Assembly (NCBI RefSeq): GCF_029589055.1
Contig: NZ_JARQZP010000003.1
Coordinates: 62,001-126,000, forward strand
DNA length: 64,000 bases
Reading direction: 5' to 3'
Source of the DNA: Vibrio hannami
GTDB taxonomy: Bacteria; Pseudomonadota; Gammaproteobacteria; Enterobacterales; Vibrionaceae
A program made the translations under genes and the position numbers. The stretch's first letter is position 1. Every line of letters begins with the position of its first letter. Of the stretch, positions 51,493 to 58,629 are shown one piece after another. The notes below the pieces were generated by a model. That model made no database searches. It was given only the letters and a program-made list of their open reading frames with translations, and was not told the origin of the DNA.

Positions 51493-52710
51493 TTAATTGA
51501 TTAGTTCAATCTTATTGAAGTCAATTTTGTTCGCTTTTGGAGAGCGTTCGATAACGGAAACCCGGCGATAACTTGTCGCCATAATGTACATAAAGCACCC
51601 AAGAATCAATCCAATTGCTAACGCGCCAACCCACTGAATTTGTAAGAAGTCCAGCTTAAACAACAACGTTAAGCCAGAAAGTAAGATCAGATTACCGACA
51701 AAGTAACGGGTTTTACCGAAGCGCTGCACGGTCAAGTCCAGATTGTCTGTATAGAGCCTTACTAAAGAATCTAAAGAGTTGACGACAAAAGTCATGCCTA
51801 CGAAAACCATCGCCAGGTTATAGAATCCGTCTACCGGAATAGCGTTTGCGCTGTAGTAGTATAGAACCGTAAACCATATTGCAATTGGAATAGATGGGAA
51901 CACCATCATCGCAGCCAGTACCTGATAGGTTCTTAATCCACCGACAAAGCGCGACGTAAACTGACCAATCATAATGCTCCATGCGAACCACCAGTAAAGG
52001 TAAAACTCGTGGTAGTCGTTGATTGGCAAAATAAACTGATGAAGGTTTGCAAAGTAATCCCCAAGCAGAGAGAAGGTGACAAAAAACTCACCAACACTTG
52101 AGCTTTCGGCTAAGAACGCGTTACCCCACATCATTGTAATCAATATGAAAAACAGCCAGCTACTGCCAAGGCTAAGTACTTTTACATAACGGATACTGGT
52201 GCTTGAATAAACAGCGATAGCAATAACGGCAAACACTATGAGGTAGAAGCTGCCGATAACCGTTTCGCCGTCACCTAATTCAGGCAGATACCAAGGCAAG
52301 TTAACCAGCAGCAAATATGCGGTAAATGCACATGTGCCAATAATTACAATGTTATTAATAAATTTTATTAATGGAATTTCGAAAAACTTAACTCTAGGCT
52401 CAATGACACAAAAATAGAAGCAAGTTAAGAAATAAAAAGCCCAGATAAAGAATGCCCAGAACCCAAACTCAATAGATAACGGGTTGCTAAATGCATATTC
52501 TGGACTTGCGATGACATCAGCGTAGCCAGAAAACTCGGTTAGAGGGAACATTATCAGCCCGACATCTAAACCGGATGTAAATAGAATCGCGATAAAAGTA
52601 AATTTACGTACTGGAGTAACGCCGATGCATTGCATATTACCCCAGCGATAGAGAATGAATATGATAGCGGCGAATGTAAATAAAATACCAGTTGATAACC
52701 AGGTGGTCAT
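51493..52710 (-). CDS. Short BCCT-like transporter
   Basis: A 405-residue membrane protein with about 11 helices. The BCCT signature is visible in altered form as FYLYWWFAWSIMIGQFTSRFVGG (family WxWWxxWxxxxGxFxxRxS). Typical BCCT carriers for choline, betaine or carnitine are 500-680 residues with an extended C terminus; this one is clearly shorter. It lies downstream of betA in the same direction (203-base gap), so import of choline or a related quaternary amine is likely (inference). The ATG at 52710 has GGAGG seven bases upstream. Confidence 0.8.
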   Translation of the reverse strand: MTTWLSTGILFTFAAIIFILYRWGNMQCIGVTPVRKFTFIAILFTSGLDVGLIMFPLTEFSGYADVIASPEYAFSNPLSIEFGFWAFFIWAFYFLTCFYFCVIEPRVKFFEIPLIKFINNIVIIGTCAFTAYLLLVNLPWYLPELGDGETVIGSFYLIVFAVIAIAVYSSTSIRYVKVLSLGSSWLFFILITMMWGNAFLAESSSVGEFFVTFSLLGDYFANLHQFILPINDYHEFYLYWWFAWSIMIGQFTSRFVGGLRTYQVLAAMMVFPSIPIAIWFTVLYYYSANAIPVDGFYNLAMVFVGMTFVVNSLDSLVRLYTDNLDLTVQRFGKTRYFVGNLILLSGLTLLFKLDFLQIQWVGALAIGLILGCFMYIMATSYRRVSVIERSPKANKIDFNKIELIN

Positions 52711-52913
52711 TACTTGACCTCCATGTTGTAGCTATAAAACACAATGAAATCCTTATTATGTTTTGCTGAGCTCGCTACAGTCGTTTGATAGCAGATGCCA
52801 TCAGGTCTTAAGTATCGTGCTGACGATAGTTAAAACCTGATCAACCGTTTCGGAGCCAGATGAAACCATTTGCGAGTATCGCGTAGGCTGGTTAGATGCC
52901 TTCAAAGACGTTT

Positions 52914-54602
52914 TTAGTAAGTCACCTCTCTTTTAGGGGAGTGTGATCTCTGGTTCGTTTCCCACTGTTCGGCAACCATTACTTCTGCATGCTCTGCCGC
53001 AAGTAATTCTTCACCAAGAATCATATCTGCTGCACGTTCAGCAACCATGATGGTAGGAGCATTCAGGTTGCCATTTGGAATGGTCGGAAAAATAGAAGAG
53101 TCGACGACTCGTAGGTTCTCTACCCCGTGAACCTTTGTCTCGGAATCGACAACTGACATCTGATCCTCTCCCATCTTGCATGAACAGGAAGGATGGTAAG
53201 CGCTCTCAACCGAGCTCCTTACGAACTTGTCTATCTCTTCATCGGTCTGGACATCTAAGCCAGGTTGAATCTCCTCACCACGATACTCGTCCAGAGCCGG
53301 TTGGTTGATAATTTCCCGAGTAAGGCGGACACATGCGCGAAAGCCTTCGATATCTTCCTGGTGAGACAAATAATTAAACTGAATTTTTGGGGCTATCTTC
53401 GCGTCATTGGAGACAACTTTTACAGAGCCTCGACTTTTAGGTTTGTTGTGCCCAATATGTACCTGGAATCCATGCCCGGCAAAAGCTTCTCTACCGTCGT
53501 ACCTCATGGCTGCAGGCAAAAAGTGGTACTGTAGATCTGGCCATTCTAGATCTGCTTTAGAACGAATAAAGCCGCACGACTCAAAATGGTTGGTTGCACC
53601 AAGCCCCGATTTGTTCAGTATCCAACGAGTGCCAATAAGCAGCTTATTGAATGGGTCAAGTTTGCCATTCAAAGAAATAGGCTTCAGACACTTGAACTGA
53701 AAGTAAAATTCCAGGTGGTCTTGTAAATTTTCACCAACACCTGGAAGCTCATGTACAAGGTCAATTCCGGCTTCTGCTAGAATGTCAGCATTGCCAATAC
53801 CAGACAACTGTAATAGGTGCGGAGAGCCGATTGAACCCGCAGAAAGAATCACTTCTTTTTGGCAGTGTTCGTCAATAATATTTCCTTTTATTTCATAGCG
53901 AACACCGACCACTTTTTTGCCCTCAAGTAATACTTTATGTACCTGAGCGTGAGTCACTACAGTCAGATTGCTACGTGACATTGCTGGCCTCAAATAGGCA
54001 TTTGCTGTCGACCAGCGCACACCATCTTTAATGGTCATATGCATAGGTCCAAAACCTTCCTGTTGGGCTGCATTATAGTCTTCGGTATGCATGTAACCTG
54101 CATCGCTACCAGCATCTACAAATGCCTGATATAAAGGGTTCTTCATGTTGTTGCCGTTGTTCACAGCAAGCGGACCTTCTCCACCTCGATATTCGTTGCC
54201 TCCAGATATCCAGTTTTCCGCTTTCTTAAAGTAAGGTAGGCAATGAGCGTAATCCCACTGGTTAGCGCCTTCCTGTTGCCATTCATCAAAGTCTCTTGCA
54301 TGCCCCCGAACATAAACCATACCGTTAATCGATGAGGATCCCCCTAAAACCTTACCGCGAGGGCAGTGCATGCGACGATTATCCAAAAAAGGTTCTGGTT
54401 CGGTTTCAAACTGCCAGGCGTACTTTTCAGTGTTCATAGGAATGGACAGTGCGGTAGGCATCTGGATAAATATACTCTTATCACTGCCGCCTGTTTCCAG
54501 AAGCAATACTCTATGTAAAGGATTGGCCGATAACCGGTTTGCAAGCACGCAACCTGCGCTGCCTGCACCAACTATAATGTAGTCATATTTTCCTTGGTTC
54601 AT
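52914..54602 (-). CDS. betA: Choline dehydrogenase
   Basis: A 562-residue GMC-family flavoenzyme that oxidises choline to betaine aldehyde. The FAD loop is [37 protein letters not shown] is GMC signature 1; [16 protein letters not shown] is signature 2. [14 protein letters not shown] and [33 protein letters not shown], with the catalytic His, match BetA closely. It lies 8 bases downstream of betB, with AGGAACTCCT before the start. There is no betI beside it, unlike the usual betIBA order. Confidence 0.95.
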
Positions 54603-54610
54603 AGGAGTTC

Positions 54611-56077
54611 CTAAAAGGGGCTTTCAAGAGGTTGCATACCAACGTAGACGGCTTTGGTCTGAGTATAGGCTTTCAGTGTTTCTGAACCATTTTCCCGACC
54701 AATCCCAGACATTTTATAGCCCCCAACCGGCATCTCGGCAGGAGAAGCGCCATAAGCATTTATCCAACATATTCCTGCTTGCATCTGGCTTATTACTCTG
54801 TGCGCACGAGTGATGTCCTGCGTAAATACGCCAGCGGCCAGCCCCAGGTGAGTATTATTTGCACGACGTATCACCTCGTCTTCATCTGAAAAGGTAAGTA
54901 CAGACATTACTGGTCCGAAAATCTCCTCTCGGGTAATGGTCATATCGTCAGTACAATCAGTGAAAATTGTGGGTGCGACAAAAAATCCGTCTGGGGAATC
55001 TTTGGGTTGCAGGGCAAAACCACCTGTAAGTAATTTTGCTCCTTCGACTTTGCCCTGATTAATATATGTGAGTACTTTCTCTTGGTGTTGTTTTGATATT
55101 AATGCGCCAAAATTTGTCTCGGGATTCATTGGATTACCGCAGATGATGTTTTGTTCGGTGCGCTCAATGAGTCGTTCGATAAACTGTGAGTAGATATCCT
55201 GATGAACAAACACTCGCGTACCGTTGGTGCAAATCTCTCCTTGGGTGTAGAAATTGCCTAACATCGCGGCAGAAACCGCGTTTTCGATATCTGCATCATC
55301 AAAAATAATTAAAGGTGATTTGCCACCAAGCTCCATTGTGACTTCTTTGAGAGATGCCGAAGCTGAAGCCATAACTTTGCAACCGGTACCCACTTCCCCG
55401 GTAAAAGATACCTTATCAATATCTTGATGCGCGGTTAGCCAAGCACCAACCTTACCGTCACCATGTATGACGTTAAATACCCCATCGGGTACGCCTGCTT
55501 CAGTAAAAATTTCGGCCAGCAACATTGCTCCACGCGGTGTTTCTTCTGAAGGTTTAAACAACATTGCGTTGCCACATGCCAGAGCAGGAGCTGACTTCCA
55601 GCAAGCTATTTGTAACGGATAATTCCATGCGCCTATTCCAGCACAAATGCCAAGAGGTTCGCGTCGTGTGTAATAAAAATCGTCGCCAATGGGTTGTTGC
55701 GTACCTTCGATACCAGGCGCTAACCCAGCAAAATATTCGATAGAATCAGCGCCTGTAACCACATCCACTACCGAAGCTTCCTGCCAGGGTTTACCGGTAT
55801 CAATAACTTCTATTTCAGCAAGTTCGTCGTTACGTTCGCGTAGTAAAGCAACAGCGTTAAGAAGAATTCGGCAGCGCTCGGTTGCTGTCATTTTAGACCA
55901 TATTAAAAAACCTGATTTTGCGCTTTCGATAGCTGCACTCTGAACACTCTCGTCCGCAACCTCAACCAAATAACTTACCTTACCAGTAGCTGGATTTATC
56001 ACCTCAAATGTTTCGCCCGTATCGTTAGGTACGTACCGACCATGCACATAGTTTTGGTAAGTCGTTAACGGTGACAT
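54611..56077 (-). CDS. betB: Betaine aldehyde dehydrogenase
   Basis: A 488-residue NAD(P)-dependent aldehyde dehydrogenase that makes glycine betaine. It matches Bet[62 protein letters not shown], catalytic Glu in [12 protein letters not shown] and Cys in [13 protein letters not shown], and [25 protein letters not shown]-like C terminus (here [19 protein letters not shown]). It heads the betB-betA-BCCT cluster and is divergent from a choline/carnitine acyltransferase gene. Confidence 0.95.
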
Positions 56078-56203
56078 AAATTAATTTCCTTTGATGGTTA
56101 CTATTTGAGCAAGCGCTCTACGTTGCATTTTTATCCTAATCATTTGAGTTCTAATGATCAAGGGGTAACAAAATAATAACAACATATAAAATATAAATAT
56201 ATT

Positions 56204-56252
56204 AGGCAATAAATTGATCTAAACACATTAAAATATCAGATGTTTATTGCCT
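56204..56252. promoter_or_regulatory. Inverted repeat in the betB / acyltransferase divergent region
   Basis: AGGCAATAAA (56204-56213) and its exact reverse complement TTTATTGCCT (56243-56252) enclose a 29-base spacer, with a second inner TAAACA/TGTTTA pair. It lies 116-164 bases before the acyltransferase ATG and 127 bases beyond the betB start. A candidate operator for coordinated control. Confidence 0.5.
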
Positions 56253-56367
56253 TTTAATTAATGTGAGTTTATATAGTTAGCCCTCAAATGATTAGAGTTA
56301 AAACTAATTTTGTAAATAGCGCTCAATTATTGAATGCTTACCTGTTTAGTTATAAGGCTACGAAGTA

Positions 56368-58152
56368 ATGGAAAACACATTTAGTCACCAGTCGAAGCTG
56401 CCAGAAATGCCAGTGCCAGAGTTAACAATAACCTTTAAAAAACTGATTGAGTGGGCAGAACCATTACTAACTGAAAGTGAGCTAAATGAAGCAAAGATAG
56501 AGGTGGATAAATTCCTGGAACCAGGAGGAGAAGGCGAAAAGCTACAGAAAAATTTGATCGAATGGGCTCAGGAAAGCACGGTTAGCAATTGGTCGGCACC
56601 AGTGTGGAAGAATATTTATTTGGATGCTCGTCATTCCCTGACTATTAACAGCAATGTGTTTTACTACCTAAAAAGCAAACTCGATGAAAAATCGAATTCT
56701 CAAGCACATATTGCAGCAGCATTAACCGCGACGGTTTATGATTTTATTGGCTCAGTTGACAACGAGCTATTGAGCGTTGACATGCAAAAAGATCGCTACC
56801 TATGCATGAATCAATATAAGAACATCTTTTCTTCGGTCAGAATTCCTTGCGTAGGTAGTGACCAGTTCAAAGTGTCAAAGTGCCGTAAGTCCATTATTGT
56901 TCTGCACAATCAAAAGATGTTTCAGGTCGACATTCTTGATGAGAGTGGTCGCCGCAGGGTGGTCCCGGACATCGAGCATGATTTGCAATTGATTCTATCT
57001 ATAGGGGATAAAGGACAAAACTTCGGATTACTGACAACCACTCCTCGGGAATCATGGGCTTTTGACAGGAAGCATCTACTGGATATATCAGAGAACAATC
57101 AGCGTGCCATGCAGATAATAGAAGATGCTGCATTTGTTCTCTGTTTAGACAACGGCAACCCTGATGCAATAACAGATATATCAAAACAACTATTGCATGG
57201 TGGTGGAGAAGATCGTTATTTCGATAAGGCATTGCAGTTTGTCGTATTTAACAATGGAAAAACAGGAATTAACTTCGAACACACAGGTGTAGATGGATCT
57301 GTAATGCTTCGCATGATAGGGCATATCTACAACTCTATCGATAAAGTGTCCGTACAAGAAGGCCAAGTAAACAAACTTGTCGCTAAATCAGATGCTCGTT
57401 TGCAGGAAATAGAGTTTTACCTTGATGAGACATTGGTTGATGCTATTCAAAATGCAAAAAACGCGTTCCATCAACATGTTGAGAATACTCAAACTCGAGT
57501 GCTGAGCTTCTCTCATTTTGGTAAAGATAGAATCAAGCAGTTTGGTGTTAGTCCTGATGCATTTGTACAGCTAGCCTTGCAGCTGGCTGAATTCAAACTC
57601 TACGGGAAGTTTTTTAGCGCCTATGAAGCGGTGATGACAAGAACGTTTTTAGATGGACGTATTGATGTGCTTTATACCGTTTCCCCAGAATCTTCGGCTT
57701 TTGTAAAGTCTCTGGTTGTGGAAGATCAAAATGTTGAAATCAGCCAGGATTTGCTTCGAAAAGCGGCACAACAGCACGTAAATCGAGCAAAAGAGTGCCG
57801 GTTTGGCGAGGGCGTTTACTCTCATTGTCTAGCGTTGCAACATCGATATAAAAAAGCCGGAAAAGAGTTGGGCATTGATGCTATGCCATCCATATTTAAC
57901 TCTCATGTGTACAAAGCGCTGACGAACAGTGTGGTATGCACCAGCACAACCTCCGATTACGGTGTCGAACTGGCAGGATATGGACCAATTGTCGATAATG
58001 GGTATGGTATTCGTTACTTTATACGTAACGATTCTATCTGTTTCAATATGACTAGCCGAACAGCACTTTCTGAGAACTTAGATAAAATGCATCGCTATAT
58101 TGAGCAGTCATTAGTCGAAATGGGAGAACTCATGGAGACAGGCGATACATAG
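56368..58152 (+). CDS. Choline/carnitine O-acyltransferase family protein
   Basis: A 594-residue protein of the carnitine/choline acyltransferase family, which is mainly eukaryotic. It moves an acyl group between CoA and carnitine or choline. Seen are LPEMPVPELTITFKKLIEWAEPLL at the N terminus, the catalytic His in GINFEHTGVDGSVMLRM, GKDRIKQFGVSPDAFVQLALQLA, the YEAVMTRTFLDGRIDVLYTVS substrate region, and the STS-like TSTTSDYGVELAGYGPIVDNGYG near the end. No targeting peptide or transmembrane segment is seen. The length (about 600) matches carnitine acetyltransferase. It is divergent from betB. Choline versus carnitine as acceptor cannot be fixed from motifs. Confidence 0.88.
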   Translation: MENTFSHQSKLPEMPVPELTITFKKLIEWAEPLLTESELNEAKIEVDKFLEPGGEGEKLQKNLIEWAQESTVSNWSAPVWKNIYLDARHSLTINSNVFYYLKSKLDEKSNSQAHIAAALTATVYDFIGSVDNELLSVDMQKDRYLCMNQYKNIFSSVRIPCVGSDQFKVSKCRKSIIVLHNQKMFQVDILDESGRRRVVPDIEHDLQLILSIGDKGQNFGLLTTTPRESWAFDRKHLLDISENNQRAMQIIEDAAFVLCLDNGNPDAITDISKQLLHGGGEDRYFDKALQFVVFNNGKTGINFEHTGVDGSVMLRMIGHIYNSIDKVSVQEGQVNKLVAKSDARLQEIEFYLDETLVDAIQNAKNAFHQHVENTQTRVLSFSHFGKDRIKQFGVSPDAFVQLALQLAEFKLYGKFFSAYEAVMTRTFLDGRIDVLYTVSPESSAFVKSLVVEDQNVEISQDLLRKAAQQHVNRAKECRFGEGVYSHCLALQHRYKKAGKELGIDAMPSIFNSHVYKALTNSVVCTSTTSDYGVELAGYGPIVDNGYGIRYFIRNDSICFNMTSRTALSENLDKMHRYIEQSLVEMGELMETGDT

Positions 58153-58193: not shown

Positions 58194-58629
58194 CTAGGCA
58201 TTAATGTTTTTTAGTAAAACGTCGCTGATTCGTTTTAACTCCAGTGCTTCTTCTCTTGCAATGTTGATCTTACATGAGAGCTTTTCTGGTATAGAAACAG
58301 CCTCTTTTTTTAGCTTCTCGCCTTTTTGTGTCAGGCTGATTTCCATTACTCTTTCATCTTCACGACTACGATTGCGGCTTATTAATTCTTTTTGTTCTAA
58401 ACGCTTTAGAAGGGGAGTTAATGTTCCTGAATCCAGATACATTTTTTTCCGATCTCTTTTACGTTAAGCGGAGCATGTTTCCAAAGGACGATCATGGTCA
58501 TATATTGAAGGTATGTGAGGTCAAGCTCATCTAAAAGCGGACGATAGGCTCGTAATACTGCGTTGCTGGCACTATAGAGAGAAAACAGATTTGGTTTTCT
58601 ATATCGATTATCTGGTCAGAATCACTCAT
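58194..58629 (-). pseudogene. MarR/OhrR-family regulator, broken by two apparent 1-base deletions
   Basis: From an ATG at 58629 the first frame reads SDSDQIIDIENQICF; the -1 frame continues SLYSASNAVLRAYRPLLDELDLTYLQYM to KEIGKK; a third frame continues MYLDSGTLTPLLKRLEQKEL and RNRSREDERVMEISLTQKG to the stop. The joins are at T4 (58582-58585) and at T7 (58442-58448). With one base added at each, a 145-residue OhrR-like MarR protein results, matching the family (DSGTLTPLLKRLE, DERV). OhrR senses organic peroxides through a Cys near residue 15, here in NQICF. No ohr gene is next to it. Confidence 0.8.

Follow-up and report, generated by a model that had tools for sequence, protein, structure and literature searches.

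A candidate choline O-acyltransferase beside the betaine-synthesis genes of Vibrio hannami and related bacteria

What would a bacterium do with a full-length choline/carnitine-type O-acyltransferase placed back to back with its genes for glycine betaine synthesis, and which acceptor would such an enzyme acylate? The question is raised by a 64,000-nucleotide stretch of Vibrio hannami DNA (assembly GCF_029589055.1, contig NZ_JARQZP010000003.1, positions 62,001 to 126,000 of the forward strand), here called the window. An earlier, sequence-only reading had described four open reading frames in it, and all of them are present:

51493..52710, minus strand: short divergent BCCT-like carrier, 405 amino acids (weak Pfam match and profile-profile comparison)
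52914..54602, minus strand: betA, choline dehydrogenase (passes NCBIfam equivalog TIGR01810)
54611..56077, minus strand: betB, betaine-aldehyde dehydrogenase (passes NCBIfam equivalog TIGR01804, narrowly)
56368..58152, plus strand: CAT, choline/carnitine-type O-acyltransferase, 594 amino acids (PF00755, active-site residues and predicted fold)

CAT is thus transcribed divergently from the carrier, betA and betB. BetA scores 808.5 bits with TIGR01810 (cut-off 732.1) and BetB 669.4 bits with TIGR01804 (cut-off 668.6), and this betA is the sole betA match of its own genome at E ≤ 0.001. Our answer, given with moderate confidence, is that CAT may be a coenzyme A (CoA)-dependent choline O-acyltransferase in a choline/betaine module, probably working on medium or long acyl groups. 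The linkage of the genes is conserved, the catalytic and CoA-binding residues of CAT are intact, and its carboxylate anchors are replaced.

CAT matches PF00755 with 535.6 bits (cut-off 22.3) over profile positions 1-574 of 574, so that the family call of the sequence-only reading and its claim of full length both stand. Its active site was compared over a clade of 25 rows, made up of 23 main-subfamily CATs (full-length, from distinct genomes, at least 48.7% identical to the window CAT) and a divergent Vibrio pair, L015 and L016 (40-42% identity); rows G882, G655, G779, G833, G722 and G1039 lie outside it, and the residues of mouse CRAT, human ChAT, mouse COT and rat CPT2 were read from PDB alignments. 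H305 of the window CAT corresponds to the catalytic His343 of CRAT, and this histidine is kept in 25/25 clade rows. The CoA-site residues Lys419/Lys423, Asp430 and Glu453 are all present in the window CAT; in the clade, the equivalents of Lys423, Asp430 and Glu453 are kept in every row and that of Lys419 in 24 of 25 (Gln in L016), with S554 and Tyr452 likewise kept in all 25. The roles of His, Lys419, Lys423, Asp430 and Glu453 are those given in the pertinent passages of PMC11852590. In PF00755 relatives from another gammaproteobacterial family (G882, G655 and G779, at loci L076, L077 and L078) Arg replaces the catalytic His, and these relatives are perhaps not acyltransferases.

The acceptor side of the pocket is where the clade departs from CRAT. 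The window CAT has I432, V434 and S485 in place of CRAT T465, T467 and R518, and throughout the clade (25/25) T465 has become Ile or Leu, T467 Val or Ala, and R518 Ser, Thr or Ala; the same three positions read V/N/N in human ChAT and T/T/R in mouse COT and rat CPT2. We take T465 and R518 of CRAT to be the residues that hold the carboxylate of carnitine. Because both are replaced in all 25 rows, as they are in human ChAT, the residues would match carnitine or gamma-butyrobetaine poorly as a substrate of CAT and would suit a choline-type one, so that the acylcarnitine formation, or use of host acylcarnitines, proposed in the sequence-only reading is disfavoured. That CAT is a true carnitine (or gamma-butyrobetaine) acyltransferase using host acylcarnitines is in our judgement quite improbable: among PDB sequences it matches CRAT best (250.9 bits; ChAT scores 211.8) and carnitine is in general a BCCT substrate, yet T465 and R518 are kept not only in CRAT, COT and CPT2 but also in G1039 and G722, bacterial relatives that lie further off, and the linked oxidation genes betA and betB are choline genes. 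Choline is, as we see it, a likely acceptor.

Positions 564-565 read A-G in 25/25 clade rows (A536/G537 in the window CAT), where CRAT has M-F (read from two mutant chains), COT G-V, CPT2 G-G and ChAT C-C; the clade pair is therefore nearest to that of CPT2. M564 of CRAT is presumably the residue that limits acyl length, and a medium or long chain for CAT seems to us an even call. The structure model of CAT (predicted local distance difference test, pLDDT, 81.5) gives Z of 39.0 to CRAT and 38.7 to ChAT, which is a tie, and about 37 to CPT2 and COT; its matches include mouse CRAT M564G and S554A/M564G, the latter with hexanoylcarnitine. The window CAT is 28% identical to ChAT and 26-31% to CRAT, COT and CPT2. 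Its I/V/S differs from the ChAT pattern Val459/Asn461/Asn514, and CAT may function like ChAT though it lacks both this pattern and common descent.

Is the gene next to bet genes by chance in one strain, as the sequence-only reading itself had named as a possible refutation? Linkage was counted when carrier, bet or proXWV genes lay within about 10 kb of CAT (some contigs end inside the 10 kb), and generic aldehyde dehydrogenase or ATPase matches below 37% identity were left out. By this count 18 of the 23 main-subfamily genomes, from Vibrio, Psychromonas, Photobacterium and Shewanella, link CAT to choline genes in three layouts. In the first (nine genomes: the window, five more Vibrio and three Psychromonas) carrier-betA-betB is divergent from CAT, and in all three Psychromonas the gap between betB and CAT holds betI. 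In the second (four Photobacterium) betI-betB-betA-proX-proW-proV is followed by CAT on the same strand, and P. chitinilyticum has a variant with betI-proXWV and then CAT, also on one strand. The third (P. obscurum, one Vibrio, S. canadensis and S. atlantica) has the carrier without betA/betB; the P. obscurum locus also holds a betI remnant. Chance neighbours were therefore rejected as an explanation, since the linkage recurs across genera and layouts. betA is present in 15 of 16 genome entries tested (two pairs are the same genome), the exception being a metagenome-assembled genome (MAG); in the CAT genomes that lack linkage, betA stands elsewhere in all except this MAG.

Among 148 genomes of the genus the carrier has 20 matches at E ≤ 0.001, of which nine are orthologues (67-100% identity, full length) and the other 11 weak matches to ordinary BCCTs. 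Carrier and CAT occur together in six of the 148 (CAT in 8, carrier in 9; hypergeometric 1.7e-7, uncorrected for kinship). The carrier lies beside betA/betB without CAT in G084 and G028, and likewise in G013, where the bet pair is more distant; such CAT-free loci make it a choline-handling gene independently of CAT. A betI-betB-betA-carrier cluster stands elsewhere in the genome in 6/6 cases (five Shewanella and one Moritella with CAT), and each of the Shewanella species S. canadensis and S. atlantica has one carrier in such a cluster and another adjoining CAT. It could be argued that CAT acylates some other neutral amine alcohol, or a non-choline alcohol, and is linked to bet genes only because it shares their osmotic or choline-responsive control; the acceptor pocket of CAT does differ letterwise from that of ChAT, and several Shewanella and Psychromonas loci have MarR-family genes next to the carrier or CAT. 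We consider this unlikely, as three linkage layouts and a second carrier beside CAT indicate a shared substrate, and the conserved Tyr452 also speaks against it. The joint handling of a quaternary amine, which the sequence-only reading had proposed, is thus strengthened by the conserved neighbourhood and by the fit of a choline-type substrate to the residues, and weakened in its carnitine and gamma-butyrobetaine branch; the observation is more general than one strain, and choline is a more probable acceptor than carnitine.

What the carrier transports bears on the same question. Its Pfam BCCT score is 22.5 bits, below the cut-off of 27, and profile-profile comparison (hhalign) against 13 ordinary Vibrio BCCTs gives 97.9% probability. 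The sequence-only reading had called it unusually short for a BCCT, and it is; the shortness is not a truncation, because 22/22 carriers, the one in the window included, are 403 or 405 amino acids long once their starts are aligned to that of the window (four have an alternative start codon 9-11 codons further upstream). The motif of the third transmembrane segment (TM3) starts at residue 47, compared with 92-131 in 10 of the 13 Vibrio BCCTs read and 48 in one (L068), the motif not being found in the remaining two, and the TM4-TM8 and TM8-TM10 spacings are about 20 residues shorter than in those BCCTs. TM4 W/W/Y, TM8 WWxxW (the BCCT aromatic box), TM10 SLDS and Asp49 occur in 22/22 carriers. 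When GLDVG of the carrier is aligned with GMGIG of BetP, Asp49 replaces the middle Gly of the TM3 glycine stretch. In the BCCT DddT, according to the relevant part of PMC13270143, A99 and G101 bind the carboxylate of dimethylsulfoniopropionate (DMSP) through their backbone amides, and activity is lost in G101D; that Asp49 and G101 are the same position is our own inference. Carboxylate recognition thus seems to be lost in CAT, and perhaps also in the carrier, so that choline or its esters would fit better than betaine, carnitine or DMSP.

In a tree of the carriers, 12 of 13 CAT-linked ones fall in one branch (95/100) together with two of nine unlinked, and the CAT-side carriers of S. canadensis and S. 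atlantica are among the 12. The linkage label needs four changes on this tree versus 7.2 in shuffles, with 7 of 500 shuffles as low. A carrier subtype defined by fixed residues was rejected, as no fixed residue divides CAT-linked from bet-only carriers.

Taken as a choline O-acyltransferase module, the locus could work as follows. A quaternary amine without carboxylate would enter through the short carrier (through ProXWV in Photobacterium); BetA and BetB would oxidise choline to glycine betaine; and CAT would exchange acyl groups between CoA and choline (acyl-CoA + choline = acylcholine + CoA), with an acyl pocket that may be open to medium or long chains. In the assimilatory direction, imported acylcholines would pass their acyl groups to CoA, so that acyl-CoA could enter beta-oxidation and the freed choline the betaine route; from the layout we lean slightly, and tentatively, to this as the main direction. 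We hold with similar reserve the opposite direction, in which CAT would use acyl-CoA to acylate choline; the resulting acylcholines (or acetylcholine) could buffer CoA, act on membranes as cationic lipids or serve as signals to animal hosts. The reaction of the family is reversible (stated in parts of PMC11852590 and PMC13255071), and in the four Photobacterium loci CAT follows betIBA-proXWV on the same strand and may be made when choline is present. Moreover, a 2026 preprint (PMC12803358) reports in its relevant passages that Limosilactobacillus reuteri turns choline into C14-C19 acylcholines, for which its authors suppose an acyl-CoA donor; these passages name no enzyme, and the word "acyltransferase" is absent from the main text. 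Bacterial acylcholine synthesis is, on that account, real in at least one case, and it has made us somewhat less inclined to assimilation, and more to synthesis, than we had been. Against synthesis, the A-G pocket speaks against an acetyl-only enzyme, the extra importer adjoining CAT in two Shewanella suits uptake better, and no exporter was noticed, no search having been aimed at exporters.

Did such an enzyme come from animals? In a maximum-likelihood tree of 35 rows, whose eukaryotes are four mammalian sequences only (CRAT, ChAT, COT and CPT2), the marine CAT clade (92/98) is separate from the mammalian rows, which group together (99/95). On this tree the clade is not a recent copy of any of the four. 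The label "eukaryotic-type" in the sequence-only reading holds for fold and family, and does not extend to recent descent from these mammalian proteins. A wider idea, which we find rather doubtful as a whole, is that marine gammaproteobacteria evolved a choline-ester-using choline O-acyltransferase independently of animal ChAT, which would import acylcholines, move the acyl group straight to CoA, saving the energy of the ester bond, and turn the choline into the osmoprotectant betaine; in reverse, it would make acylcholines, including acetylcholine-like signals.

Several points weigh against the choline acyltransferase reading. ChAT Asn514 is not matched in the clade, which has Ser, Thr or Ala there; ChAT joins CRAT in the tree (100/96), not the marine clade; and the tree has several long branches and only those four eukaryotic rows. 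Five of the 23 CATs are unlinked within 10 kb (S. benthica, Shewanella UCD-KL12, S. gelidimarina, Moritella and the MAG), and neither divergent Vibrio CAT has a choline gene within that distance; what does lie near these CATs are generic aldehyde dehydrogenase or ATPase matches of less than 30% identity. As no fixed carrier residue follows linkage, a special acylcholine substrate of the carrier is without sequence support, and the AlphaFold2 model of the carrier (14 close sequences) reaches a pLDDT of only 38.2. In the end, the single reported bacterial case of acylcholines, as described in the passages of PMC12803358, goes toward synthesis.

As the sequence-only reading had it, the gene is rare in bacteria: CAT-bearing genomes number 8/148 in the genus, 11/247 in the family (one a fragment), 6/295 in the order, 6/369 in the class and 3/398 in the phylum, in draws that overlap and each include the genome of the window. 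An alignment scan of genome contigs gave 17 CAT loci, in Vibrio, Photobacterium, Psychromonas, Shewanella, Moritella and one MAG labelled Clostridiaceae, and 11 of the 17 are in genomes already in the taxon draws. The 23 distinct genomes leave out a 58-residue CAT fragment (G285) as well as the L015/L016 pair. Plasmid relatives were not found at E ≤ 1e-5 (tblastn, 72,556 plasmid records), nor viral relatives of the fold with E ≤ 0.001 in BFVD. In another Vibrio (L035:9112-9285) a 58-residue CAT relic of 72% identity suggests gene loss. The Clostridiaceae MAG (L095) has a CAT relative of 49% identity that shares the active-site signature and has no bet genes around it, which reflects either transfer or mis-binning. 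When compared with loci L010-L014, CAT of the window is 59-63% identical, far below its neighbours carrier, betA and betB (82-86%).

Compared with known systems, the clade shares with animal ChAT the fold, the catalytic His and the lack of the carnitine-carboxylate Arg/Thr, and differs in Ser/Thr/Ala for Asn514, A-G for C-C at 564-565, a separate branch and a bacterial bet context. With CRAT, COT and CPT2 it shares the full-length family, the catalytic His, the CoA-site Lys/Asp/Glu and, in A-G, a likeness to CPT2 G-G, whereas CAT is without equivalents of Arg518 and Thr465 and is only distantly identical, as given above. Like betIBA-betT and betIBA-proXWV operons, the locus has betA, betB and a quaternary-amine carrier or ProXWV; unlike them, it has a short divergent BCCT relative and an added CAT, and a search of the window with one Photobacterium BetI found no betI match at E ≤ 1e-4, in agreement with the absence noted earlier. 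The carrier resembles BetP, DddT and BetT in TM4 W/W/Y, TM8 WWxxW and the TM10 SxDS motif, and differs from them in its 405 amino acids, the TM3 motif at residue 47, Asp49 and a score below the Pfam cut-off.

To our knowledge, bacterial genes for joining or splitting fatty acids and choline are hardly known, and no paper on this gene cluster was among the matches listed in open-licence PMC text. If the reading is true, bacteria possess a choline-type acyltransferase whose descent is separate from that of animal ChAT and which can be recognised by its residues and its conserved gene module; it would be a second natural solution to choline-versus-carnitine selectivity. Choline esters would join the marine quaternary amines that serve in osmoprotection and as carbon sources, and the module would offer candidate genes for the bacterial acylcholine turnover that the passages of PMC12803358 report without an enzyme.

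How might the genes be regulated? Two features lie between betB and CAT:

56136..56162, plus strand: putative operator, CTAATCATTTGAG then CTAATGATCAAG (conserved block)
56283..56295, minus strand: second copy of CTAATCATTTGAG in inverted orientation, in the CAT-side part of the region (motif match)

The betB-CAT intergenic regions of six Vibrio loci share one strongly conserved block, which ends in CTAATGATCAAG, and CTAATGATCAAG is exact in 7/7 Vibrio loci with a main-subfamily CAT, one of which lacks bet genes and has carrier and CAT divergent. It occurs once in the 5.37-Mb genome, between betB and CAT; since about one copy is expected by chance (a reversed control gave one), only the conservation across loci counts. 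It was not found in two scanned carrier-bet Vibrio loci without CAT, nor, at one mismatch, in the non-Vibrio loci scanned, save L029, L032 and L090, which each have it at one mismatch near betB or CAT (L090 with one more elsewhere). Vibrio betIBA-proXWV is under BetI and CosR control, and choline relieves BetI, according to the relevant part of PMC7876524. Several loci of Shewanella, Psychromonas and Moritella have a MarR-family gene next to the carrier or CAT, and the genome of the window has one that is 57% identical to the Shewanella one, with relatives also in four CAT-free Vibrio of the draw. The Shewanella relative stays below every NCBIfam cut-off, and that the gene of the window's genome is CosR is a guess. 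CTAATGATCAAG was not found at up to two mismatches in the 3.5-kb stretch around this gene; looser half-sites occur near it, here and in several other genomes, and may be chance.

Directly 3' of CAT lies a broken MarR-family gene (58197-58573, minus strand), closest to Vibrio OhrR, with its halves in different frames. Elsewhere in the genome, two BCCT genes of contig C7 appear to be split over several frames (at about 1186213-1187675 and 1481183-1482647), and these are either pseudogenes or assembly errors.

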